Shown here: one piece after another, positions 3,914 through 14,952 of the stretch
Position numbering within the stretch: the stretch's first letter is position 1
Layout of the letters: every line of letters starts with the position of its first letter
Assembly: GCF_029953285.1 (NCBI RefSeq)
Contig: NZ_JASAOI010000089.1
Coordinates: 1-50,860 of the forward strand
DNA from: Yinghuangia seranimata
GTDB lineage: Bacteria > Actinomycetota > Actinomycetes > Streptomycetales > Streptomycetaceae
DNA length: 50,860 bases
Direction of reading: 5' to 3'
Notes under the pieces: generated by a model
Seen by the model: only the letters and a program-made list of their open reading frames with translations
Database searches by the model: none
Told to the model about the DNA's origin: nothing
Position numbers and translations under genes: made by a program

Positions 3914-5225
3914 CGTCGTTCGCCGACCGCGCGGGCCGCTCCCGCGGCGGCTCGGCCGGGTGACCGACCGCGATGGCGCCCATCGGGTCCCAGCCGGACG
4001 GGAGTTCGAGCACGTCCCGCACCACGTCGCGGCAGAACATGGTCGACGACACCCACGCCGAACCGAGGCCCTCCGCCGTCAACGCGATCAGGAGGTTCTC
4101 GACCGCCGCGCCCGCCGACACGACGAACATCTCGCGTTCGGCGGCCGAGCGGACCGGGTCGGGATAGGTGTGCGCCCCGTCGGTGACGAGGCACGGGACG
4201 ACCAGGTACGGCGCGTTGCGCAGCAGGTCGCCCCGGGAGACCCGCCGGGCCACCGCCTCGTCGGAGAGGCCGTCGGCCCGCAGGTCGCGGATCCACGCGT
4301 CGCGCATCGCGTCCAGCAACGCGACCCGTGCGGAAGGCGATTCGAGGAGGACGAAGCGCCACGGCACCGTGTGGTGCGGTGCCGGGGCCGTGACCGCGGC
4401 GTCGACCGCGCGGCGGACGGCGTCGCCGTCGACCGGCTCGTCGGTGAAGGCGCGGATGGTGCGCCGCGCGGTAACGGCCCGGCGGGCGCCCTCGGCGAGC
4501 GCGTCGTCGGTGCCGAGCCGGAACATGTCGTCGGCCGAACTCCGCACGACGGCCCGGATCCCGGCACCGTCCTCCTCGGTCACCAGGTGGCCGAGCCCGC
4601 GCACGACGGCGACCGGCACGGCTCCCGACTTGCCCTTGACCAGCTCGGCGGCCGACGCCAGTTCGTCGACGACGGCGGTCACCGTGACGGCGAGTTCGTT
4701 GCCGTGCGTGTCGGTGCGCCCGCGGTGGTCGTCGAGCGCGTCCAGGCCCGCCACGCCGATCGCGACGTCGGTCAGCCCGGTGCGCCACGGCCGCCCGAAC
4801 GTGTCGCTGACCACGACGCCGACCCGCCGCCCGGTGCGGGCGAGCAGCCCGGCGCGGAGCGCACGCGCGGACGCGTCGGAGTCCTCGGGGAGGAGCAGCA
4901 GCGTCCCGGGCTCGGTGTTCGAGGCGTCGACGCCGGCCGCCGCCATCACGAATCCGTGCCGGGTCTCCACGATCCGGGTGTTGCCGCGCCGCGCGACGAC
5001 GCGCACGGCCTCGGAGTCGATGACCTTCTCGCGGTCGACGCCGCGCAGAAGGCGGCCCTCCGCCTTGCTGACGATCTTGGACGTGACGACCAGCACGTCG
5101 CCGTCGGCGAGGCCCACGCCGGAGGCCGCCGCGGCGTCCGCGACCAGCGCCGCGAGGTCGTCGCCGTCCCGCACCTCGGGGATGCCCGGCAGGCCGACGA
5201 CCTCGTAGCCGCTCGGCGGCGTCAC
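3897..5225 (-). CDS. fbiB: Coenzyme F420:L-glutamate ligase / FMN oxidoreductase
   Basis: A 442-residue two-domain protein. Residues 1-245 match CofE, the GTP-dependent F420-0:gamma-glutamyl ligase ([53 protein letters not shown]). Residues about 255-442 are a nitroreductase-fold FMN domain ([13 protein letters not shown], then a late EGLGSAWVS), as in actinobacterial FbiB. It adds the poly-glutamate tail to F420; in mycobacteria the C-terminal domain reduces dehydro-F420-0. The start is a GTG whose GTGA overlaps the fbiA stop, so the pair is translationally coupled. The open frame continues much further upstream, but only this segment is the gene. Confidence 0.95.
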
Positions 5226-6214
5226 GCGCCGGCCTCCGACGGGCCCGCGTCCACGCGCACCTCGGCGGCCAGGTCGAGCGCGGCCCGGGCCATCGCCGCC
5301 GTCGCCTCGACGTCCGTCATCATCAGCGGCACCGCGCGGCACGGGATCCCGGCCGCTTCGACGTCGGCGACCGCCGCCGCGTCGGTGCTGTCCACCAGCC
5401 AGCCGTCGAGCAGCCCGGGCCCGTAGTGCTTGGCGACCGCCGCGGCCGACGTCTCCACGCCGACCGCCTCCAGCACCTTGTCCGCCATGCCGCGCACCGG
5501 TGCGCCGCCGACGATCGGCGACAGGCCGACGACCGGCGCGGCCGCCTCGACCAGCGCGTCCCGGATCCCGGGGACACCCAGGATCGTGCCGACCGACACG
5601 ACCGGGTTGGACGGCGGGAGCAGGATCACGTCCGCCGCGGCGATGGCCGCCAGCACGCCGGGGGCCGGCTTGGCCTCCTCGATCCCGACCGCGACGATCG
5701 CGTGGGCGGTCGGCTCGGCGCGCAGCTTGACCCAGTACTCCTGGAAGTGGATCGCCTTGCGGGTCTCCGGGCGGTCGGGGTCGTCGACGACGACGTGTGT
5801 CTCGACCCGGTCGTCGGACATGGGGATCAGCCGCACCCCCGGGTTCCACCGCGCGCACAGCGCCTCGGTGACCGCGCTCAGCGGGTAGCCGGCGCCCATC
5901 ATCTGGGTGCGCACGATGTGCGTCGCGTAGTCGCGGTCGCCCAGCCCGAACCAGGTCGGCTCGACGCCGTACGCGCGCATCTCCTCGCGGATGCTCCACG
6001 TCTCGTCGCGACGGCCCCAGCCCTGCTCCTCGTTGATGCCCTCGCCCAGCGTGTACATCACGGTGTCGAGGTCCGGGCACACCTTCAGCCCGAACAGGTG
6101 GATGTCGTCGCCGGTGTTGCCGACGACAGTGATGTCCGCCTGGGGTTCCGCTGCCTTGAGGCCCCGCAGGAACCGTGCTCCGCCGATCCCGCCGGCCAGT
6201 ACCACGATGCGCAT
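5222..6214 (-). CDS. fbiA: F420 biosynthesis 2-phospholactate/PEP transferase
   Basis: A 330-residue CofD/FbiA protein that joins the guanylyl-activated phosphoenolpyruvate/lactate moiety to Fo, giving (dehydro-)F420-0. Diagnostic stretches: N-terminal [62 protein letters not shown] and [20 protein letters not shown] place the start at the ATG at 6214, which begins the conserved N-terminus; upstream codons are not protein-like. No ribosome-binding site is present and GAGACT lies seven bases before the ATG, so the mRNA may be leaderless. It is the first gene of an operon with fbiB. Confidence 0.95.
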
Positions 6215-6303
6215 ACCGACCAGTCTCGCAGGCCGGGCGCACGACCTCCCGCAGCGGGGCGACACCCGCGCCGATCACCCCGCACGACGCGCGCGGGCCA
6301 CCC

Positions 6304-6320
6304 CTTACGAAAGCCTGACG
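6304..6320 (+). promoter_or_regulatory. Direct-repeat operator, site A
   Basis: CTTACGAAAGCCTGACG: half-sites CTTACG and CTGACG start 11 bp apart, the spacing used by OmpR/PhoB-family regulators. The first base lies 55 bp upstream of the epimerase -10 hexamer (6359). Related sites occur at 9408-9424, 9459-9475 and 13341-13357; I infer binding by the response regulator encoded at 8608-9357. Confidence 0.55.
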
Positions 6321-6358
6321 TCCGGTCATGCCGCCGCCCCGGCAGGGCCCGCCGGGCC

Positions 6359-6364
6359 TAGCGT
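6359..6364 (+). promoter_or_regulatory. -10-like hexamer of epimerase
   Basis: TAGCGT followed by seven bases and the ATG at 6372, implying a leaderless transcript. The same CCTAGCGT-N7-ATG arrangement precedes the glycosyltransferase at 9523. Confidence 0.5.
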
Positions 6365-6371
6365 CGACGGC

Positions 6372-7406
6372 ATGAGGATCCTCGTCACCGGCGGAGCCGG
6401 GTTCATCGGATCGCATGTCACCGAGGCGCTGCTCGCCGCCGGGCACGAGGTGCGGGTGCTGGACGCGCTGCTGCCCGCCGTGCACCGCGCGGCCCCCGCG
6501 CTGCCGGGCGACGCCGAGTTCCGGCGGGGCGACGTCCGCGACCCGGACACCGTCGCCGCGGCCCTGCGCGGGGTCGACGCCGTCAGCCACCAGGCGGCGA
6601 TGGTCGGCCTCGGCCTCGACCTCGACGACGCCCCCGACTACGTGGGCTGCAACGACCTCGGCACCGCCGTCCTGCTCGCCGCCATGGCCCGCGCGGGCGT
6701 CGCGCGCCTGGTGCTCGCGGGGTCGATGGTCGTCTACGGCGAGGGCCGCTACGAGTGCGGCGAGCACGGCGCCGTCGTGCCGGGCCCGCGCCCCGCCGCC
6801 GACCTCGAACGCGGGCGCTTCGAACCGCGCTGCCCGGCGTGCGGCGGCGAGCTCGCGCCGGGCCGGGTCGCCGAGGAGGCCGCACCGGACCCGCGCAACG
6901 TCTACGCCGCCACCAAGCTCGCCCAGGAGCACCTCGCCGCCGCCTGGGCCCGTACCGTCGGCGGCACCGCCACCTCGCTGCGCTACCACAACGTGTACGG
7001 GCCGAGGATGCCTCGCGACACGCCCTATGCCGGGGTCGCGTCCATCTTCCGCTCCGCGCTCGCCGCCGGGACCGCCCCGCGCGTGTTCGAAGACGGAGGC
7101 CAACGCCGCGACTTCATCCACGTCGGGGATGTCGCCCGCGCCAACGTGGCCGCGCTCGGCCGTGAGGACGTCGGGCTGCGCACCTACAACGTCGGGACCG
7201 GCAACCCGCGCACGGTCGGCCAGATGGCGGACGCGCTGGCCGCCGCGCACGGCGGCCCCGAGCCCATGGTGACGGGACAGTTCCGGCTCGGAGACGTCCG
7301 GCACATCACGGCGTCCCCGGCCCGGCTGGAACGCGAGCTGGGCTGGCGGGCGGAAGTGGACTTCGAGGACGGTATGCGGGAGTTCGCGGCAGCCGGGATG
7401 CGGTGA
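6372..7406 (+). CDS. NAD-dependent sugar epimerase/dehydratase with Zn-like insertion
   Basis: A 344-residue extended SDR. Residues 7-13 carry the GGAGFIG dinucleotide-binding motif; S118 (AGSMVVYG) and Y178/K182 (NVYAATK) form the catalytic triad; [11 protein letters not shown] and [12 protein letters not shown] are typical of UDP/dTDP-sugar epimerases. An insertion at residues 126-170 has C129, H132, C154 and C157 (CGEH and CPAC), which could bind a metal; similar Cys-containing insertions occur in proteins annotated as dTDP-L-rhamnose 4-epimerase in actinomycetes. Substrate not provable here. It stands next to a glycosyltransferase block and is preceded by operator site A and a leaderless-type promoter. 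Confidence 0.85.
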
Positions 7407-7419
7407 CCGGAACGCCGAA

Positions 7420-7447
7420 GGCGGCCGGTCAGCGCATCCTGGCCGCC
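7420..7447. terminator. Convergent hairpin between epimerase and kinase
   Basis: GGCGGCC (7420-7426) and GGCCGCC (7441-7447) form an inverted repeat between two converging genes, a likely two-way terminator without T-run. Confidence 0.4.
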
Positions 7448-8611
7448 CTAGGCGAGGGCCCCTACATGAGGGCCCTGCACCGGCAGCCGCACCTCGAACC
7501 GGCAGCCGCCGGTGACGTTGACGACGCCCACCGACCCCCGGTGCGCCTCCACGATGCCGCGGACGATCGCCAGGCCGAGCCCCGCGCCGCCGTCGGGACC
7601 GGGGGTGCGGGCGTGCGAGCCGCGCCAGCCGGTGTCGAAGACGCGGTGCAGGTCGTCCTCGGGGATGCCGCCGCACGCGTCCGTCACCGTCACGACGACC
7701 GCGTCCGGCGCACTCTCCACGCCGACCACCACCGCGCCGTCGGACGGCGTGTGCCGGATCGCGTTGACCAGCAGGTTCGTGAGCGCCCGGGACATCTCCT
7801 TGCTGTCCACGCGCACCGGCACGGGCTCGATCGCGCCGCCCTCGAGCCGCACCGACCGGGACCGGGCGAGGACTTCGGTGCCCGCGAGGGCGTCGCCGAC
7901 CAGGTCGTACAGCGAGACCCGCGACAACGACAGCTGCAGCGCGCCGGCCTGGATGCGGGACAGCTCGAACAGGTCGTCCACCATGCCGCTCAGCCGGTCC
8001 ACCTCGACCCGGATGCGCCGGTGGTAGCGCGCGGGATCGGCCGCGACGCCGTCCTCCAGCGACTCCGCCATCGCCCGCAGGCCCGCCAACGGCGTGCGCA
8101 GGTCGTGCGAGATCCACGCGATCAGCTCGCGCCGCGACTGCTCGACCGCCCGTTCCCGGGCCCGGGCCTCGGTCAGCCGGGCGCTTGTGCGCTCCAACTC
8201 GCTGCTCAAGTCAGCCAGTTCCGCTATCGACGAGGGGCGCGGAGGCTGGTACGCGGCAGGCTCGCCGTCGGAGGACGCCGAGCCGAGCCCGTGCGCGGCC
8301 CGCTGCAGCGCCCGCACGTCGGCGACGACCGGACGCCCCAGCACCGCCGCGACGCCGACCGCCAGCACCGCGGCGACCCCGCACACCACCATCATCACGG
8401 TCAGGTCGTGGGAGGACAGGAACATCGCCTGCGCGACCCCGACCGTTCCCGCCGCCATCGCCGCGACCGTCACCACGGAGACCGCGGCCAGCGCGACGGA
8501 CAGCGGCCGATGCCGCGCCAGCCGCAGGGCGCCCATGCCGACGACCGTCACCACCAGGCCGCACAGGCTCGCGATGAGGCAGACCAGCAGGAAGTCGTCG
8601 AGCGGCATCAC
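7448..8611 (-). CDS. Two-component sensor histidine kinase
   Basis: A 387-residue membrane kinase. Residues about 7-30, 37-60 and 70-93 are hydrophobic, with little extracellular sequence, so the signal may be sensed in the membrane. The H-box [10 protein letters not shown] puts the phosphorylated His at residue 169; the N-box is [11 protein letters not shown], the G1-like box DACGGIP and the G2 box GAGLGLAIV. Its GTG start overlaps the response-regulator stop (GTGA), so regulator and kinase form one operon in that order. It is embedded in the glycosyltransferase block it probably controls. Confidence 0.93.
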
Positions 8612-9357
8612 GCGTCACTCGCAGCACCCGGGGACGCCACCGCCGGATCGGGGAGCTCCGGCTCCACCGCGTCCAGCCGATAGCCGACGCCCCAGACCGT
8701 CACCAGCATGCGCGGCGCCGCCGGATCGTCCTCGATCTTCTCCCGCAGCCGCCGCACGTGCACGGTCACGGTCGAGCGGTCGCCGAACGACCAGCCCCAC
8801 ACCTCGTGCATCAGCTCCTCGCGCGAGAACACCCGGCCGGGATGCTGCATCAGGAAGCACAGAAGATCGAACTCGCGTGCGGTCAAGGCGAGTTCCCGAC
8901 CCCCGCGGGTCGCCCGGTGCGCGCCGACGTCGACCTCGAGGAGCCCGTGCCGCAACGGCGCTCCACCCACCCCGGCGGCCGCGGCACCCGTGCGGCGCAG
9001 CACGGACCGGACCCGCAGCACCAGCTCGCGCGGGCTGAAGGGCTTCGTCACGTAGTCGTCCGCGCCGATCTCCAGGCCCAGCACGCGGTCGCTCTCCTCG
9101 CCGAGCGCCGTCAGCATCACCACCGGCACCGGCGCGCGCTCGCGCAGCCGGCGGCACACTTCGAGCCCGTCCATGCCGGGCAGCATCAGGTCGAGCACCA
9201 CGAGGTCCGGAGGCGTCGACTCCGCCATGGCGAGCGCGGTAGGCCCGTCCGGCGCGTGCGCCGTCGCGAAGCCCGCCGCGCGCAGGTAGTCGACCACCAC
9301 CTCGGCGACGGTCGGATCGTCGTCGACGACGAGAACGGTGCCCGCGGTGCCTGTCAT
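8608..9357 (-). CDS. OmpR-family response regulator
   Basis: A 249-residue regulator. The receiver domain (residues 5-120) has the acidic pair in VVDDD, phospho-acceptor D56 (LVVLDLMLPGMDG) and the conserved Lys in DDYVTKPFSP. Residues about 140-230 are a winged helix (LTAREFDLLCFL, GRVFSREELMHEVWGW, STVTVHVRRLREKIE, TVWGVGYRL). The ATG at 9357 is six bases after a -10-like TACACT, so the message is probably leaderless. An 11-bp-spaced direct repeat starts exactly 55 bp above that hexamer, suggesting autoregulation. It is co-transcribed with the kinase. Confidence 0.95.
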   Translation of the reverse strand: MTGTAGTVLVVDDDPTVAEVVVDYLRAAGFATAHAPDGPTALAMAESTPPDLVVLDLMLPGMDGLEVCRRLRERAPVPVVMLTALGEESDRVLGLEIGADDYVTKPFSPRELVLRVRSVLRRTGAAAAGVGGAPLRHGLLEVDVGAHRATRGGRELALTAREFDLLCFLMQHPGRVFSREELMHEVWGWSFGDRSTVTVHVRRLREKIEDDPAAPRMLVTVWGVGYRLDAVEPELPDPAVASPGAASDA

Positions 9358-9363
9358 GGGCCG

Positions 9364-9369
9364 AGTGTA
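9364..9369 (-). promoter_or_regulatory. -10-like hexamer of response regulator
   Basis: TACACT on the minus strand, six bases before the ATG at 9357. Operator site C starts 55 bp upstream of it, the same geometry as at the epimerase. Confidence 0.5.
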
Positions 9370-9407
9370 GGGATGCGCACGGGGGCGCCCGCCACTCACG
9401 ACGAGGC

Positions 9408-9424
9408 CGTTCGGAATCCGTAAG
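9408..9424 (-). promoter_or_regulatory. Direct-repeat operator, site C
   Basis: Minus-strand CTTACGGATTCCGAACG: half-sites CTTACG and CGAACG 11 bp apart. It matches site A at 12 of 17 positions and lies in the same orientation and at the same distance from the response-regulator -10 as site A does from the epimerase -10. Confidence 0.55.
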
Positions 9425-9458
9425 AAGCACCCGCCCCCCAACCCCGCCCCCAAGCCTC

Positions 9459-9475
9459 CGTACGAATTTCGTAAG
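9459..9475 (-). promoter_or_regulatory. Direct-repeat operator, site D
   Basis: Minus-strand CTTACGAAATTCGTACG, matching site A at 13 of 17 positions. It is nearly palindromic, so it also reads as CGTACG/CGTAAG on the plus strand, 51 bp upstream of the -10-like TAGCGT (9510) of the glycosyltransferase at 9523. It may serve the divergent glycosyltransferase promoter, the regulator promoter or both. Confidence 0.5.
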
Positions 9476-9522
9476 CACGCCGCGCACCGGAATCGCCCCG
9501 TTGGCTCCCTAGCGTGAAAGCC

Positions 9523-10263
9523 ATGGATGCCGCCTCTTCCGCCGGGGCCAAGCCCCCGCACACGCCGACACCCGCCCCGACCCCAGCACGCCGCCAGGCC
9601 GACGCCGCGGCGGCCGTGGACGTCGTCCTGCCGTGCCTCGACGAAGCCGGCGCCCTCCCGTGGGTCCTGAAACGCATGCCCCCGGGCTACCGCGCGATCG
9701 TCGTCGACAACGGGTCCACCGACGGCTCCGCCGACCTCGCCCGGGACCTCGGCGCCCTCGTCGTGCACGAGCCGGTCAAAGGCTTCGGCTCCGCCTGCCA
9801 CGCCGGCCTCACCGCCGCCACCGCGCCCGTGGTCTGCTTCTGCGACTGCGACGCTTCCCTCGACCCGCGCGAACTCCCGTACGTGGCCGAACCGGTCCGC
9901 GACGGCGACGCCGACCTCGTGCTCGGCCGCCGCCGCCCGGCCACGCGCGGCGCCTGGCCGCCCCACGCGCGCCTCGCCAACCGCGTCCTCGCCCACAAGC
10001 TCCGCGCCCGCACCGGAGCACGCCTCCACGACCTCGGCCCGATGCGCGCCGCCCGACGCGAAGACCTCCTCGCCCTGGGCCTCACCGACCGCAGATCGGG
10101 CTACCCGCTCGAAATGGTCGTCCGCGCGGCCGAGGCCTCCTGGCGCATCCAGGAGACCGACGTGCGGTACCTCCCGCGCACCGGGCGCTCCAAGGTGACC
10201 GGCACTCTACGCGGCACCCTCACCGCCGTCCGCGACATGAGCGCGGTGCTCGCCCATGTCTGA
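9523..10263 (+). CDS. GT2-family glycosyltransferase
   Basis: A 246-residue cytosolic GT-A fold enzyme of the dolichol-phosphate-mannose-synthase/UgtP type. It shows VVLPCLDEAGALPWVL at about residues 30-45, the nucleotide-sugar binding VVDNGSTDGSADLA, a CDCDASLDP acidic motif and late GYPLEMVVRAAEASWRI. No membrane helix is visible, so it likely transfers sugar to a lipid carrier at the inner face of the membrane. I choose ATG 9523, seven bases after TAGCGT; GTG 9514 is in frame but overlaps that hexamer. It opens an operon with the DUF2064 gene (8-base overlap) and the methyltransferase. Confidence 0.88.
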   Translation: MDAASSAGAKPPHTPTPAPTPARRQADAAAAVDVVLPCLDEAGALPWVLKRMPPGYRAIVVDNGSTDGSADLARDLGALVVHEPVKGFGSACHAGLTAATAPVVCFCDCDASLDPRELPYVAEPVRDGDADLVLGRRRPATRGAWPPHARLANRVLAHKLRARTGARLHDLGPMRAARREDLLALGLTDRRSGYPLEMVVRAAEASWRIQETDVRYLPRTGRSKVTGTLRGTLTAVRDMSAVLAHV

Positions 10264-10906
10264 CCACAGCCGCGACACCACGCTCCTGGTGATCGCCAAA
10301 TCCCCCGTGCCCGGACGGGTCAAGACGCGGCTGACGCCCGCGCTCACCCCGCACCAGGCGGCGGAGGTCGCCGAGGCGGCACTCGCCGACACCCTCGACG
10401 CGGTACGGGCGACCCCGGCCCGCCGCCGCGTCCTCGTCCTCGACGGAGCCCCGAGGCCGTGGTTCCCGGCCGGCTTCGAGGTCGTCCCGCAGTGCGCCGG
10501 CGGCCTCGACGTACGCCTCGCCGCCGCGTTCGCCCTGTGCGGCGGACCCGCGCTGCTGGTCGGCATGGACACCCCGCAGATCACGCCCGAACTCCTCGGC
10601 ACCGTCGACTGGGACACTGCCGACGCGTGGTTCGGCCCGGCCGCCGACGGAGGGTTCTGGGCGCTTGGCCTCCGGCGGCCCGACCCGGCACTGCTCCTCG
10701 GCGTCCCGATGTCGACTCCCCGCACCGGCGCCGTACAGCGGGCCAGGCTCACCGCGGCAGCCCTCACCGTGCGGGACCTGCCGACCCTCACGGACATCGA
10801 CACGGTGGCCGACCTCACCGACGTCGCCGCCACCGCACCGGACACCCGCAGCGCGCGCACCGCCCGCCTGTTCGGCGTCACCGAGCGCACGAAGGCCCTG
10901 GCGTGA
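10256..10906 (+). CDS. DUF2064 / TIGR04282 glycosyltransferase-like protein
   Basis: A 216-residue protein of the family annotated as transferase 1, rSAM/selenodomain-associated (TIGR04282). The N-terminal TLLVIAKSPVPGRVKTRLTP resembles nucleotidyltransferase P-loops, GGPALLVGMDTPQITPELL carries a probable metal-binding Asp, and ADGGFWALGL is the family hallmark. This suggests a GT-A-like fold that activates or transfers a sugar or related group; the substrate is unknown. It overlaps the upstream GT2 by eight bases and its TGA overlaps the GTG of the methyltransferase, so all three products are made together. Confidence 0.85.
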   Translation: MSDHSRDTTLLVIAKSPVPGRVKTRLTPALTPHQAAEVAEAALADTLDAVRATPARRRVLVLDGAPRPWFPAGFEVVPQCAGGLDVRLAAAFALCGGPALLVGMDTPQITPELLGTVDWDTADAWFGPAADGGFWALGLRRPDPALLLGVPMSTPRTGAVQRARLTAAALTVRDLPTLTDIDTVADLTDVAATAPDTRSARTARLFGVTERTKALA

Positions 10907-11586
10907 CAACCGCGATCATGGTCGGCCCCCACGCCGACCACCCCCGCCCCGGCCCACTCGCGCCCTACGAGACCGCGCTGCGCGACGGCGGCCCGCTCTA
11001 CCTCGTCAGGACGGACGGCCGCCGCGAACCCCTCGACGTCGACCGCTGGAAGGCCGCCGCCGACACCGCCGACGAGACCCTCCTCGCCCGCTGCGCCGGC
11101 CCGACCCTCGACATCGGCTGCGGCCCGGGTCGCCTCGTCGCCGCGCTCGTCCGACGCGGCACACCGGCCCTGGGCATCGACCTCGCCGCCACCGCCGTCC
11201 GCCTCACCGTCCACGCGGGCGGCGCGGCCCTGCGCCGCTCGGTCTTCGACCCGCTGCCGGGCGAAGGCCGCTGGTCCAGCGCCCTGTTGGCCGACGGCAA
11301 CATCGGTATCGGCGGCGACCCCGAGGCGCTTCTCACCCGAACCGCCGCCCTCCTGCGCCGCGACGGAGTCCTCCTCGTCGAGACCGACCCCCGCAACCCC
11401 GACCGCAGCGAACGCTTCGCCGCGCGCGTCGAGGACGCGGCGGGCCACCGAGGAACCCCGTTCCGCTGGGCCGCCCTAGGCCTCCACGCCCTCGAACGCC
11501 TCGCGCCGACATGCGGTTTCAAGACCACCGGGACCTGGCACACCGACGACCGTGCCTTCGCCGAGCTGATACGCATCGGCGTGTGA
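10903..11586 (+). CDS. Class I SAM-dependent methyltransferase
   Basis: A 227-residue protein with a Rossmann-type SAM site: TLDIGCGPGRLVAAL (motif I, about residues 69-83), ALGIDLAATAV (acidic motif II) and a late VLLVETDP. The stretch SSALLADGNIGIGGDPEALL is typical of small-molecule methyltransferases found with TIGR04282 genes. The start is the GTG of the GTGA overlap; ATG at 10918 is an alternative. As the last gene of the operon with GT2 and DUF2064 it probably modifies the same glycolipid or metabolite. Confidence 0.85.
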   Translation: MTTAIMVGPHADHPRPGPLAPYETALRDGGPLYLVRTDGRREPLDVDRWKAAADTADETLLARCAGPTLDIGCGPGRLVAALVRRGTPALGIDLAATAVRLTVHAGGAALRRSVFDPLPGEGRWSSALLADGNIGIGGDPEALLTRTAALLRRDGVLLVETDPRNPDRSERFAARVEDAAGHRGTPFRWAALGLHALERLAPTCGFKTTGTWHTDDRAFAELIRIGV

Positions 11587-11612
11587 CGCGGGTGTGACGC
11601 CACAGCGCATGG

Positions 11613-12086
11613 TCAGCGGTCACGCCGGAACAGCCCGGGGCGCCACGTCCGCAGCGCGATCACGATGCCCGTCGCCGCCGCCACGACCCCCCACACCACC
11701 GCGAGGTTCCGTCCGTAGTCCAGCGGCAGCACCGACGGGTTCTGCGTCGGAAGCGGCCGAAGCAGCGCCGGCAAGGTGATCAACGTCGCCGCCACGCCCG
11801 CCGCCAGACCGCCCAGCAACGTGCGGCGCACCCACGGAGCCGGACCCCTCGCCGGTACGGCCCGCATGACCACGAACCCCACGCCGAAGACCAGCGTGGC
11901 GAAGACCGCGTCGTGCAGCACGAGTCCACCGACGAGCCACCGGGCCACACCCCACTTGTCGACGTACGAGGGCTCGTCGAGCAGCCCCGCCGTCCCGTAG
12001 CCCATCAACGCCAACCCGCCCGCACCCAGCACCGCCCGCGACCACCACACCACGCGCGACCCACGCGCCCGCTCCGTCGTGCTCAC
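11613..12086 (-). CDS. Membrane protein partner of molybdopterin oxidoreductase
   Basis: A 157-residue protein with four hydrophobic segments: about residues 15-33, 47-68 (LVGGLVLHDAVFATLVFGVGF), 85-104 and 128-147. Its GTG start overlaps the stop of the molybdopterin enzyme (GTGA), so the two are translationally coupled. The HD in the second helix (LVLHDA) is its only striking polar feature. It could anchor the oxidoreductase or pass electrons from the membrane pool, but no family was recognised. It converges on the methyltransferase with a 26-base gap. Confidence 0.75.
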   Translation of the reverse strand: MSTTERARGSRVVWWSRAVLGAGGLALMGYGTAGLLDEPSYVDKWGVARWLVGGLVLHDAVFATLVFGVGFVVMRAVPARGPAPWVRRTLLGGLAAGVAATLITLPALLRPLPTQNPSVLPLDYGRNLAVVWGVVAAATGIVIALRTWRPGLFRRDR

Positions 12087-13294
12087 AGGACCACCTCCAT
12101 CCGCGACACCCACTTCGTCTGGAGCACACCCGGACGGTTCGGCGCGATGACCCGGGCCGGGTACCCGTGGTCCTCCGCGAGCGGCTCCCCGTTGAGGGAA
12201 AGGGCCAGCAGGCTCAAGGGATCGCGTGCGTACTCGCGCCGCATCTCCATGACCGCGTACGGGCTGAACCGCTCCAGCGAGAACACCCGCAAGGTCGCGT
12301 GCTCCGGCGCGCCCGCACGCTCCAGCAGGTCGCGGATCCGGACCCCCGTCCACGACGCCGACGCGCTCCAGCCCTCCACACACGCGATGGGCAACGTGAC
12401 GGTGTGCTGCGGCATGGCCAGCAACTCCTCGCGCGAGACGCTGAATCCGCGCGGCCCGACCACCGTGAGCCGCCACGCCGGATCGCGGATCGGCGCGAGG
12501 ACGCCCGCGCCCGCCGCCGTCTTGTTGACCGGCAGCCCCTGCGGACCGACCCCGGGCCGGCGCGGCGCAAGCAGCGAGACCTTGCCCAGCGGTGAGAACG
12601 ACTGCCCCACGGTCGCCAGCGTCACGACACCCACCGAGGCGCCCAGCGCCGCCATGAGCCCACGACGCGACGGCCCGTCCACAGCCTGTGGAACCGCAGT
12701 TCCCCGCGCTCGCCGCCAGTGCCCCACGATCGTCGGCAGCTGCACGGCGATGTGCAGCACCAGCGCGCCGGTCACCACCCACCCGATCCAGTAGTGCACC
12801 GGGACGAACGGGAACGGCCACGGGTACCACTGCACGATGTTGAGCAGCCCGCCGGCCAGTTCGAAGACCGCCGCGGCGACGAGCACCGCGACCGACAGCC
12901 GCTCCAGCGCGTGCCGCACCGACCGGGCCGGAGGCCACGCGAACAGCCGGGGGTAGACCACCCACAGCTTCACGAGCAACAGCGGGACCGCCGCGATGCC
13001 GGTGGCGACGTGCAGGCCCTGCGTCACGCGGTAGCCCCACACCGGTCGGCTCGGCAGCGCCAGCCAGCCCGGCTGATGCTGCATCAGGTGGCTGAGCACG
13101 CCGGTCAGGAAGCACACCGCGAAGGCCGGCCCGAGCAGCCGACCCACCACGACCGCAGTGCGCGGATCGTGCAGCGCGGAACCGAACGCGCCCTCCCGCA
13201 GTGGACCTCGGCGCAGCGCGGCGGGCGGCTCGGGCAGCGGAATGTCGGGTGCCCCGGCGGCGCGCGGCAGGCGGGGGATACGGATCCTGCTCAT
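12083..13294 (-). CDS. Membrane-bound molybdopterin-dependent oxidoreductase
   Basis: A 403-residue fusion. Residues about 45-200 hold four or five hydrophobic helices with several His (LSHLMQHQPG, VTQGLHVATG, PVHYWIGWV, VLHIAVQL), like cytochrome b561-type membrane domains. Residues about 255-403 are a sulfite-oxidase-type molybdopterin domain; C305 in PIACVEGWSASASWTGV is the expected molybdenum ligand and LAEDHGYPARVIAPNRPG is also typical. The catalytic domain may face outward, since a further hydrophobic segment (about 212-230) precedes it. Start is ATG 13294. The reaction is unknown; the family includes sulfoxide and sulfite enzymes. It leads an operon with the 157-aa membrane protein and is divergent from the GT87 gene. 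Confidence 0.88.
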   Translation of the reverse strand: MSRIRIPRLPRAAGAPDIPLPEPPAALRRGPLREGAFGSALHDPRTAVVVGRLLGPAFAVCFLTGVLSHLMQHQPGWLALPSRPVWGYRVTQGLHVATGIAAVPLLLVKLWVVYPRLFAWPPARSVRHALERLSVAVLVAAAVFELAGGLLNIVQWYPWPFPFVPVHYWIGWVVTGALVLHIAVQLPTIVGHWRRARGTAVPQAVDGPSRRGLMAALGASVGVVTLATVGQSFSPLGKVSLLAPRRPGVGPQGLPVNKTAAGAGVLAPIRDPAWRLTVVGPRGFSVSREELLAMPQHTVTLPIACVEGWSASASWTGVRIRDLLERAGAPEHATLRVFSLERFSPYAVMEMRREYARDPLSLLALSLNGEPLAEDHGYPARVIAPNRPGVLQTKWVSRMEVVL

Positions 13295-13340
13295 GTCCGC
13301 ACTCAACCCCCAAAGTGCCCCCGCTGCACCGCTTCGCCTC

Positions 13341-13357
13341 CTTACAGACTCCTGACG
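13341..13357 (+). promoter_or_regulatory. Direct-repeat operator, site B
   Basis: CTTACAGACTCCTGACG, identical to site A at 13 of 17 positions, with half-sites CTTACA and CTGACG 11 bp apart. Its first base is 55 bp upstream of CATGGT (13396-13401), a weak -10-like hexamer six bases before the GT87-like ATG. It could also act on the divergent molybdopterin gene. Confidence 0.5.
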
Positions 13358-13407
13358 CATCGACGAGGCGGACTCACAAGCCGGTCCGGGGCTGCCATGG
13401 TCGGGGC

Positions 13408-14952
13408 ATGCCAGCGGCGACACAGCCCGGAAACCGACCCGGGAAGACCTCAGGAACCCGACCCGGGGAGACCTCGGAAGCCCACCGCCCCAAGAGCCCC
13501 GAGACCCACCTGGCCACAGCGCTGGCCGTACTGCTCGTCGTCCTCCAGGCCGCGGTGCTCGCCTACGCGGTCCACGGCGCCCACACCCGGTCGGGCGACT
13601 ACGGCACGTACGTCGTCTACGCCGTCGCCTGGTCGGTCTTCGCCGTCGCGGCCTGGCTGACGATCCGCCGCGTCCCTCGTCGGGCAGCCGTCCCGCTGAT
13701 CCTCCTGGGCGCGGTCGCCTTCCAACTGATCGCCCTCTCCGCCCCACCCCAGACCAGCGACGACGCCTACCGCTACGCCTGGGACGGCCGCGTCCAGGCC
13801 GCCGGGATCTCGCCGTACCGCTACACCCCTCAGGACCCCGCCCTCGAACGCCTGCGCGACGACTGGCTGTTCCCGCCGCCGGAGCAGGGCCCCTGCGTCG
13901 GGTGGTTCAAACACCCGCTCCCCGACGGCGCCTGCACCCTCATGAACCGCCCCGCCGTCCACACGATCTATCCACCCGTCGCGCAGGCCTGGTACCGCCT
14001 GGTCCACGCGGCGACCCCGTCCGACGGCCGCGAACCCGTGCAGGCGGCAGCCGCGCTGACCGCGATCGCCGTCACGCTCGCGCTGCTCTGGTTGCTCCGC
14101 CGCATCGGTCGGGACCCCAGGCACGTCGTGCTGTGGGCGTGGTGCCCGATGGTCGCCCTGGAATGCGGCAACAACGCGCACGTGGACGCACTCGGAGTGT
14201 TCTTCCTCGTGCTCGGCCTCGGCGCGGTCGCCGCGAAGCGCCCCCTGCTCGGCGGCCTGCTGGCCGGTGCCGCGATCGCCACCAAGATGTTCCCCGCCGC
14301 ATCGCTCGTCGGGGCGGCCCGGAGGCGCCCGTGGCTCACGTGGGGGACGGCCGCCGCGACGGTGCTTCTCTCCTACGTCCCGTACCTGCTGATCTCCGGC
14401 TCGGCCGTCATCGGCTACCTGCCCGGCTACCTCAAGGAGGAGGACTACAACGACGGCGCCCGGTTCGGCCTGCTCGACCTCGTGCTGCCCGAGGCCGCCA
14501 CACCGTTCGCGGCGGTCGCGGTCCTCGTCGTCACCGCCGTCGTCGTGTCGCGCCGCTCCGACCCGGACCGCCCCTGGCACGCCGCCCTCACGATGACCGG
14601 CACGCTGCTGCTGGTGCTGGCCCCGAACTACCCCTGGTACTCACTCATCCTGGTGGCCCTCGTCGTCCTGGACGGCCGCGCGGAATGGCTCGCGGTAGGC
14701 CTCGCCGGGTACGCCCTCTACTTCACCTGGATGCTCGGCATCACCGACACCCAGATGGCGGCCGTGCACCACATCGCGTACGGCGCCGCGCTCGCCGTGG
14801 TGGTGTCCACCGCGGCACTGCGCGGCCGCCGCACACGCATGACGCACCGTCAGCCCGAGTGCGCCGCGGAACCCGTGCCGCCCTCCGAGGCCGAGGCCGT
14901 GGTGCCGGAGCCCGTCGGAACCACGGGCAACCCGGCCGCCCGCCAAGCCTGA
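13408..14952 (+). CDS. GT87-like membrane glycosyltransferase
   Basis: A 514-residue polytopic protein with about ten hydrophobic segments between residues 37 and 475. The first outside loop contains QTSDDAYRYAWDGRVQAAGISPYRY, whose paired acidic residues are the catalytic motif expected in polyprenol-phosphate-sugar-dependent enzymes of the GT-C fold; AGAAIATKMFP and NYPWYSLILVAL are shared with GT87 mannosyltransferases. It would add a sugar to an acceptor at the outer face of the membrane, complementing the cytosolic GT2. Start ATG 13408 follows a weak leaderless-type promoter with operator B upstream. The last 103 bases overlap the convergent rhodanese gene. Confidence 0.85.
   Translation: MPAATQPGNRPGKTSGTRPGETSEAHRPKSPETHLATALAVLLVVLQAAVLAYAVHGAHTRSGDYGTYVVYAVAWSVFAVAAWLTIRRVPRRAAVPLILLGAVAFQLIALSAPPQTSDDAYRYAWDGRVQAAGISPYRYTPQDPALERLRDDWLFPPPEQGPCVGWFKHPLPDGACTLMNRPAVHTIYPPVAQAWYRLVHAATPSDGREPVQAAAALTAIAVTLALLWLLRRIGRDPRHVVLWAWCPMVALECGNNAHVDALGVFFLVLGLGAVAAKRPLLGGLLAGAAIATKMFPAASLVGAARRRPWLTWGTAAATVLLSYVPYLLISGSAVIGYLPGYLKEEDYNDGARFGLLDLVLPEAATPFAAVAVLVVTAVVVSRRSDPDRPWHAALTMTGTLLLVLAPNYPWYSLILVALVVLDGRAEWLAVGLAGYALYFTWMLGITDTQMAAVHHIAYGAALAVVVSTAALRGRRTRMTHRQPECAAEPVPPSEAEAVVPEPVGTTGNPAARQA

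Follow-up and report, generated by a model that had tools for sequence, protein, structure and literature searches.

The PHO box of PhoP consists of head-to-tail 11-base-pair (bp) direct repeats with a GTTCACC core. Other described systems come close to the locus analyzed here. MtrA, of the Streptomyces MtrAB pair, is an OmpR/PhoB-type regulator whose 17-bp site pairs two half-sites of 6 bp at 11-bp spacing, with a TTAC/GTAAC core (PMC12323332). The GlnR box comprises two 5-bp units 11 bp apart, GTnAC-n6-GTnAC (PMC10704036). CutRS is a two-component system conserved in Streptomyces, whose OmpR-type regulator has few targets in S. venezuelae (PMC12802291, PMC9739842), and a 2022 review covers many unnamed S. 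coelicolor pairs of the OmpR type, among which an orthologue of the present pair is not recognizable from the excerpt (PMC9739842). Here, we analyzed a 50,860-nucleotide stretch of Yinghuangia seranimata (contig NZ_JASAOI010000089.1, positions 1 to 50,860; the window), which carries a sensor histidine kinase, an OmpR/PhoB-type response regulator and four 17-bp sites at neighboring promoters. We propose that these constitute a self-contained two-component regulon, in which the regulator would activate itself and the kinase, an SDR-family epimerase, a GT87 glycosyltransferase and a GT2-TIGR04282-methyltransferase operon. From the sequence evidence, we place the probability of this proposal at about 0.88.

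The four sites were read directly from the window. Each is a pair of half-sites arranged as direct repeats 11 bp apart, at the coordinates claimed by an earlier, sequence-only reading of this DNA. Site A (CTTACGAAAGCCTGACG, 6304-6320, forward strand) lies in the epimerase promoter, site B (CTTACGGATTCCGAACG, 9408-9424, reverse strand) in the regulator promoter, where it is a candidate for autoregulation, and site D (CTTACAGACTCCTGACG, 13341-13357, forward strand) in the GT87 promoter. Site C (CTTACGAAATTCGTACG, 9459-9475, reverse strand) belongs to the promoter of the GT2 operon, is inverted relative to GT2, and may also serve the regulator promoter. A -10-like hexamer begins 55 bp from the start of the site, exact to the base as had been claimed, at the epimerase (TAGCGT, 6359-6364, forward), the regulator (TACACT, 9364-9369, reverse) and GT87, where the hexamer is weak (CATGGT, 13396-13401, forward). 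The ATG codons follow after 7, 6 and 6 bases, at 6372, 9357 and 13408 respectively, in agreement with the 6-7 bases given before. For GT2, the hexamer (TAGCGT, 9510-9515, forward) stands 51 bp from site C, with 7 bases to the ATG at 9523. The uniform orientation of site to gene that had been noted stands for the epimerase, the regulator and GT87, and falls as a general rule with the GT2 site, which is inverted at 50-51 bp. Four sites with three spacings of 55 bp are far beyond chance.

We derived a strict pattern, CTTACRNANNNSKDACR, from the four window sites and their orthologous sites, and searched the 9,795,748-base assembly (113 contigs, 98% complete). The pattern matched four times, all within the locus, and the reversed pattern matched twice. 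As the pattern was derived from the four sites, recovering them is no test, whereas the zero further matches in 9.8 Mb are. The confinement of the site to the locus, originally noticed for the window, thus extends to the whole assembly at strict stringency. A motif common at unrelated promoters, the outcome that had been named in advance as refuting, was looked for across the genome and was not found. Allowing one mismatch gave 92 matches in the same genome versus 74 for the reversed control, thus the looser matches are mostly noise, and further weak targets are neither demonstrable nor excludable at this stringency. Within the genus, genome G001 has five strict matches, four of them inside its locus, and genome G002, which is without the kinase, has one.

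Of 394 sampled Streptomycetaceae genomes, 322 have a kinase orthologue (E <= 1e-60, four best candidates scored per genome); the 72 kinase-negative genomes comprise 20 listed directly and 52 inferred from a missing entry in the positive list. Strict matches averaged 2.85 per kinase-positive and 0.69 per kinase-negative genome (Mann-Whitney p=1.9e-23), and at least one was present in 93% and 47% of these genomes, respectively. The reversed control pattern averaged 1.43 and 1.22 (p=0.45, 394 genomes). These counts bear on a different explanation, in which the sites are bound by the conserved MtrA or another paralogue (PhoP, GlnR) and not by the locus regulator. The Streptomyces MtrA consensus, GTAACCNNNNNGTAACC, has a like 6-5-6 layout with the TTAC core on the opposite strand (PMC12323332), and MtrA is the best NCBIfam score of the locus regulator, at 246.6 bits against a cut-off of 300. 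However, MtrA is described as a broad regulator (PMC12323332), whereas the strict motif is confined to the locus, and the motif count tracks the kinase over the 394 genomes. We regard binding by MtrA or a paralogue as very unlikely, a point to which the genomes lacking the pair also speak, as described below.

We compared the position of the sites at each target across 110 loci, reduced to 99 by dropping those with at least 95% kinase DNA identity. A matrix built from 144 strict sites gave 182 hits in the 1.28 Mb of these loci, and its reversed version gave one; six of the 182 fell outside -320 to +60 of any cluster gene start. Upstream sequence of 300 bp was available for 60 epimerase orthologues; 54 of them score 9/12 or better at -69 to -67, and all other offsets together yielded six matches on the same strand and one on the opposite strand. 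In the 54 promoters, TAnnnT follows the site start at an offset of 55 in 48, 56 in five and 54 in one. The epimerase promoters place 6-8 bases between the -10 and the ATG, and their best TTGACA match to a -35 is no better than in shuffles (mean 2.40 versus 2.58, 58 promoters). At GT87, 31 of 34 orthologous sites have a -10 before an in-frame start at an offset of 54-57. Of the 93 sites before the regulator, 73 fall into two spacings, 54-56 (43 sites) and one helical turn more, 65-66 (30 sites); one or other spacing is kept in 73 of the 80 loci having a site, the 73 fitting sites sitting in 73 different loci.

The inverted GT2 site also keeps its distance: at 67 of 82 orthologous sites, the offset to TAnnnT is 50-51. 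Thus, the GT2 operon, which the sequence-only reading had listed as a probable target, becomes a full member of the predicted regulon through site C. In three loci (L174, L175 and L182), a single site between the regulator and GT2 fits both genes, at 54 or 65 toward the regulator and 50 toward GT2. A second operon that had been listed as probable, that of the molybdopterin oxidoreductase, is unsupported: its 25 inverted sites, the one orientation examined, have no offset that stands out.

The stretch between site and -10 is almost without conservation in the epimerase promoters, while the site, the spacing and the -10 are kept across genera. This pattern is difficult to reconcile with conservation for a non-regulatory reason, such as recombination, structural DNA or neutral inheritance, although intergenic sequence is common to close relatives. 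In addition, sites are found beside these genes in unlinked positions and have mostly decayed where the regulator is missing, as detailed below. We give a non-regulatory origin next to no weight.

In Planotetraspora/Rhizohabitans (L104, L105, L108 and L109), the kinase-regulator pair occurs without the sugar genes in a 17-kb stretch, yet a CTTACGG-N5-TGAC-like site precedes the regulator. Three such pair-only loci are in the non-redundant set, of which only L105 passes the matrix at 14. Autoregulation may thus predate the connection to the sugar pathway.

Next, we considered genes away from the regulator, using 28 strict sites in 25 stretches selected by eye for lying outside the main kinase locus, although L225, one of these stretches, itself holds a kinase-regulator locus. 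At 15 of the sites an epimerase, GT2 or GT87 gene begins, and without exception a hexamer and a start codon follow at 55-56 in the forward or 49-50 in the inverted orientation. Twelve have no cluster gene, and none of these has a hexamer and start at those offsets; at one (L178), a hexamer at offset 61 leads into 14 codons. The remaining site, at a contig end, is ambiguous (L220). The separation from the pair can be large. G214 holds an epimerase-GT2-GT87 cluster 0.6 Mb from the pair, with both the epimerase and the GT87 site at offset 55, and the GT87 gene of G126, 0.8 Mb from the pair, keeps site and spacing in the same way. G114 has two GT2 operons at distances of 0.2 and 0.3 Mb from its kinase (L217 and L218), each with an inverted site at offset 50. 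More than one GT2-led operon away from the kinase was seen both in this genome and in G093 (L219 and L227), with inverted sites at 49-50.

Twenty kinase-negative genomes that keep the epimerase, 19 of them with GT2 as well, served as natural knock-outs. Some are closely related, and the set represents several losses, not 20 independent ones. No regulator orthologue was found in these 20 at E <= 1e-62, with 16 of them giving a 50-53% paralogue as best hit and four no hit; positive controls in four kinase-positive genomes gave 68-71% identity. TAnnnT ahead of the epimerase start survives in every one of the 20. By contrast, the site scores at least 9/12 in six (at least 10 in five of them) and at most 7 in 13. 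It is thus kept in 6 of 20 genomes without the pair versus 54 of 60 with it (Fisher p=5.7e-7), on a site window that was wider for the 20 (-71 to -64) than for the 60 (-69 to -67) and so favors the null. In the 16 genomes that hold a paralogue, the sites are mostly gone, which argues further against binding by MtrA or another paralogue. The claim that the regulator controls itself, the epimerase and GT87 is hence supported, as a prediction, by the private motif, its co-occurrence with the kinase, the spacing, the unlinked sites and the decay on loss.

G002, where the locus survives as a relic, stands apart from the 20. Here (L165, G002:C1:1850000-1865000, approximately 6189-7249), codons 1-204 of the epimerase are followed shortly by the tail of GT87 (codons 350-459), as if one deletion had removed the whole block between the two genes. 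The site of the relic, which is the single strict match of G002, is still 55 bp before the -10 at the epimerase start.

Activator-dependent promoters are marked by an upstream site, a fixed helical phase and a missing -35. The sites here lie upstream of the -10 at a fixed helical phase (54-56 or 65-66) and the epimerase promoters are without a -35, and this combination points to activation. It argues against a regulator that binds these sites and represses, or that activates some promoters and represses its own. Autoregulatory sites can repress and two tandem sites precede the regulator in Yinghuangia. Moreover, the promoters that lack both pair and site keep the -10 and gain no -35, and would have to work, if they work at all, without either. 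On balance, we judge repression, whole or partial, to be unlikely. The regulator very probably activates the four target promoters, which are predicted to be leaderless and without a -35.

We propose the following mechanism for activation by the locus regulator. The kinase, with three hydrophobic segments and hardly any extracytoplasmic domain, would sense a membrane or envelope signal and phosphorylate the regulator. The regulator would then bind head-to-tail to half-sites 11 bp apart, CTTACG-N5-CTGACG/CGAACG/CGGACG, and recruit RNA polymerase to promoters that have a -10 but no -35. A site facing its gene would act across 55 bp to the -10, or one helical turn more at the regulator's own promoter, and the inverted GT2 site across 50-51 bp. 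The resulting mRNAs would be leaderless, given the 6-8 bases from -10 to ATG. Together, the targets may make a nucleotide sugar, load it onto a polyprenyl-phosphate carrier and transfer it outside the membrane, as judged from their families. Of this scheme, genome comparison shows the sites, their spacing, the set of genes and the association with the pair, and the remaining steps are predicted.

The kinase has three hydrophobic segments, joined in part by a very short loop, and probably senses within or at the membrane. In a predicted topology, both features would fit the intramembrane-sensing type of histidine kinase, which has no extracytoplasmic sensor domain and only a few residues between its membrane helices. 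The loop between segments two and three contains a conserved AMFLSxHD motif (residues 62-69), in which M63 is present in practically all of 89 sequences, H68 in 94% and D69 in 97%. In a kinase without a sensor domain, this loop is a candidate spot for signal sensing.

The window genes are assigned as follows. Downstream of site A is the SDR-family sugar-nucleotide epimerase/dehydratase (6372-7406, forward; PF01370, 3.6e-49). The sensor histidine kinase (7448-8611, reverse) has its three hydrophobic segments at the N-terminus, followed by HisKA (PF00512) and HATPase_c (PF02518) domains. The putative binder of the sites, the OmpR/PhoB-type response regulator (8608-9357, reverse), has Response_reg (PF00072, 2.8e-31) and Trans_reg_C (PF00486, 1.8e-30) domains; the kinase gene overlaps its end, thus the two are predicted to form one operon. 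The GT2 glycosyltransferase (9523-10263, forward; PF00535, 1.6e-18) resembles polyprenyl/dolichyl-phosphate hexose synthases, and matches NCBIfam NF041391 at 9.2e-24 and 83.6 bits, under the cut-off of 375. Its end is overlapped by the start of the gene for a CofC-like TIGR04282/DUF2064 protein (10256-10906, forward; PF09837, 5e-20; TIGR04282, 1.8e-34 and 119.2 bits, under the cut-off of 134), which therefore appears to belong to the GT2 operon. The last gene of the operon encodes a putative SAM methyltransferase (10903-11586, forward, start codon tentative; PF13489, 1e-06). The GT87 membrane glycosyltransferase (13408-14952, forward; PF09594, 2.6e-08) belongs to a family that depends on polyprenol-phosphate sugars. 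It shares its upstream region with the molybdopterin oxidoreductase (Oxidored_molyb; 12083-13294, reverse). On the other side of the epimerase, the window setting includes cofD (5222-6211, reverse), and a cysteine dioxygenase family gene (PF05995, 15308-15871) adjoins the locus.

The closest named relative of the window kinase is that of Yinghuangia soli (L039), with 89% identity. Around the kinase in 80 named loci, taken as stretches of at most 17 kb of which many end at contig ends, we found the epimerase in 51, GT2 in 59, TIGR04282 in 54, the methyltransferase in 53, all four in 45, and GT87 in 37.

Several observations weigh against the proposed regulon. About 7% of the kinase-positive genomes have no strict match and, as given above, 47% of the negatives have one or more. 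The strict pattern also misses real sites: G361 has no strict match, yet its epimerase carries CTTACGAAGCCATGACG at -68. Since both pattern and matrix were derived from these very loci, raw match counts are to some extent circular; this applies less to the tests on spacing, unlinked sites and natural knock-outs. The p-values are inflated by the relatedness of the genomes. The matrix gives no hit in 12 of the 99 loci. Six of the 60 kinase-linked epimerase promoters lack a site at -69 to -67 (L058, L093, L111, L088, L022 and L085), of which L085 carries a site scoring 11/12 roughly one helical turn farther out, at -78. No site precedes the regulator in 18 of 98 loci (matrix score of at least 16), seven of the 80 loci with a site fit neither spacing, and a loose hexamer (.A...T) was accepted for GT87 and the regulator. 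Five of the 20 pair-less genomes retain a site scoring 10/12 or better; of these sites, one adjoins a piece of the kinase (L195) and one a piece of the regulator (L201), the contig of a third stops after the epimerase (L197), and the remaining two are near neither piece (L194 and L211). Lastly, activation in preference to repression is argued from site position and the missing -35.

Beyond the regulon itself, we consider a more detailed and tentative picture, to which we give somewhat less than even odds. A head-to-tail dimer would activate in both orientations under two distinct stereospecific rules, at 55 bp or a turn more when facing the gene and at 50-51 bp when inverted, the latter being the arrangement of most GT2 operons examined, some of them far from the regulator. 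Where a single site lies between the regulator and GT2, it could serve both promoters at once. Through a kinase that senses within the membrane, this dimer would run an envelope-glycan pathway that is distributed, has not been described before and occurs in most of the Streptomycetaceae sampled.

The proposed regulon equips a regulator pair that occurs in 322 of the 394 Streptomycetaceae genomes sampled with a predicted DNA address, a brief list of targets and a testable spacing rule. Tying the SDR, GT2, TIGR04282 and GT87 proteins into one pathway provides a handle on a probably lipid-linked glycan. The inverted GT2 site is a clean test case for the contact of an OmpR-family activator with RNA polymerase, and the genomes that keep the enzymes without the pair display promoter drift after regulator loss.

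Literature searches aimed at the regulon, with most subscription papers outside their scope, found no published description of it. SCO6353/SCO6354 was considered as the S. coelicolor orthologue and ruled out, since the available excerpts place it in a five-gene operon with a phosphatase, on a genomic island (PMC3599759, PMC1934918). SCO0551, SCO0552, SCO7230, SCO7231, SCO7533 and SCO7075 were, in the literature searched, mentioned in one review only.

We compared the locus with the described systems. By sequence, the regulator has the fold of PhoB, RegX3 and Streptomyces PhoP, its best-scoring solved chains being RegX3 (2oqr) and MtrA (2gwr). It scores under the NCBIfam PhoB cut-off (TIGR02154, 223.5 versus 296.2 bits), as it does under that for MtrA. 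The core of the locus sites differs from the GTTCACC of the PHO box, and there are no phosphate genes among the targets. CutR binds TAWATAAA, a motif absent from the four window sites; the CutS kinase has an extracellular sensor domain, and no CutR site was identified at the regulator's own promoter (PMC12802291). GlnR is a global nitrogen regulator without a partner kinase (PMC10704036, PMC9739842), and its core sequence differs. With MtrA, the difference lies in both site and scope. The locus half-site is CTTACG/CTGACG, whereas that of MtrA is GTAACC or its complement GGTTAC, neither of which occurs in any of the four window sites, so that GTAACCNNNNNGTAACC is not matched. The targets of the locus regulator are few, comprising one gene set at strict stringency, and its kinase is present in most, not all, of the sampled genomes.

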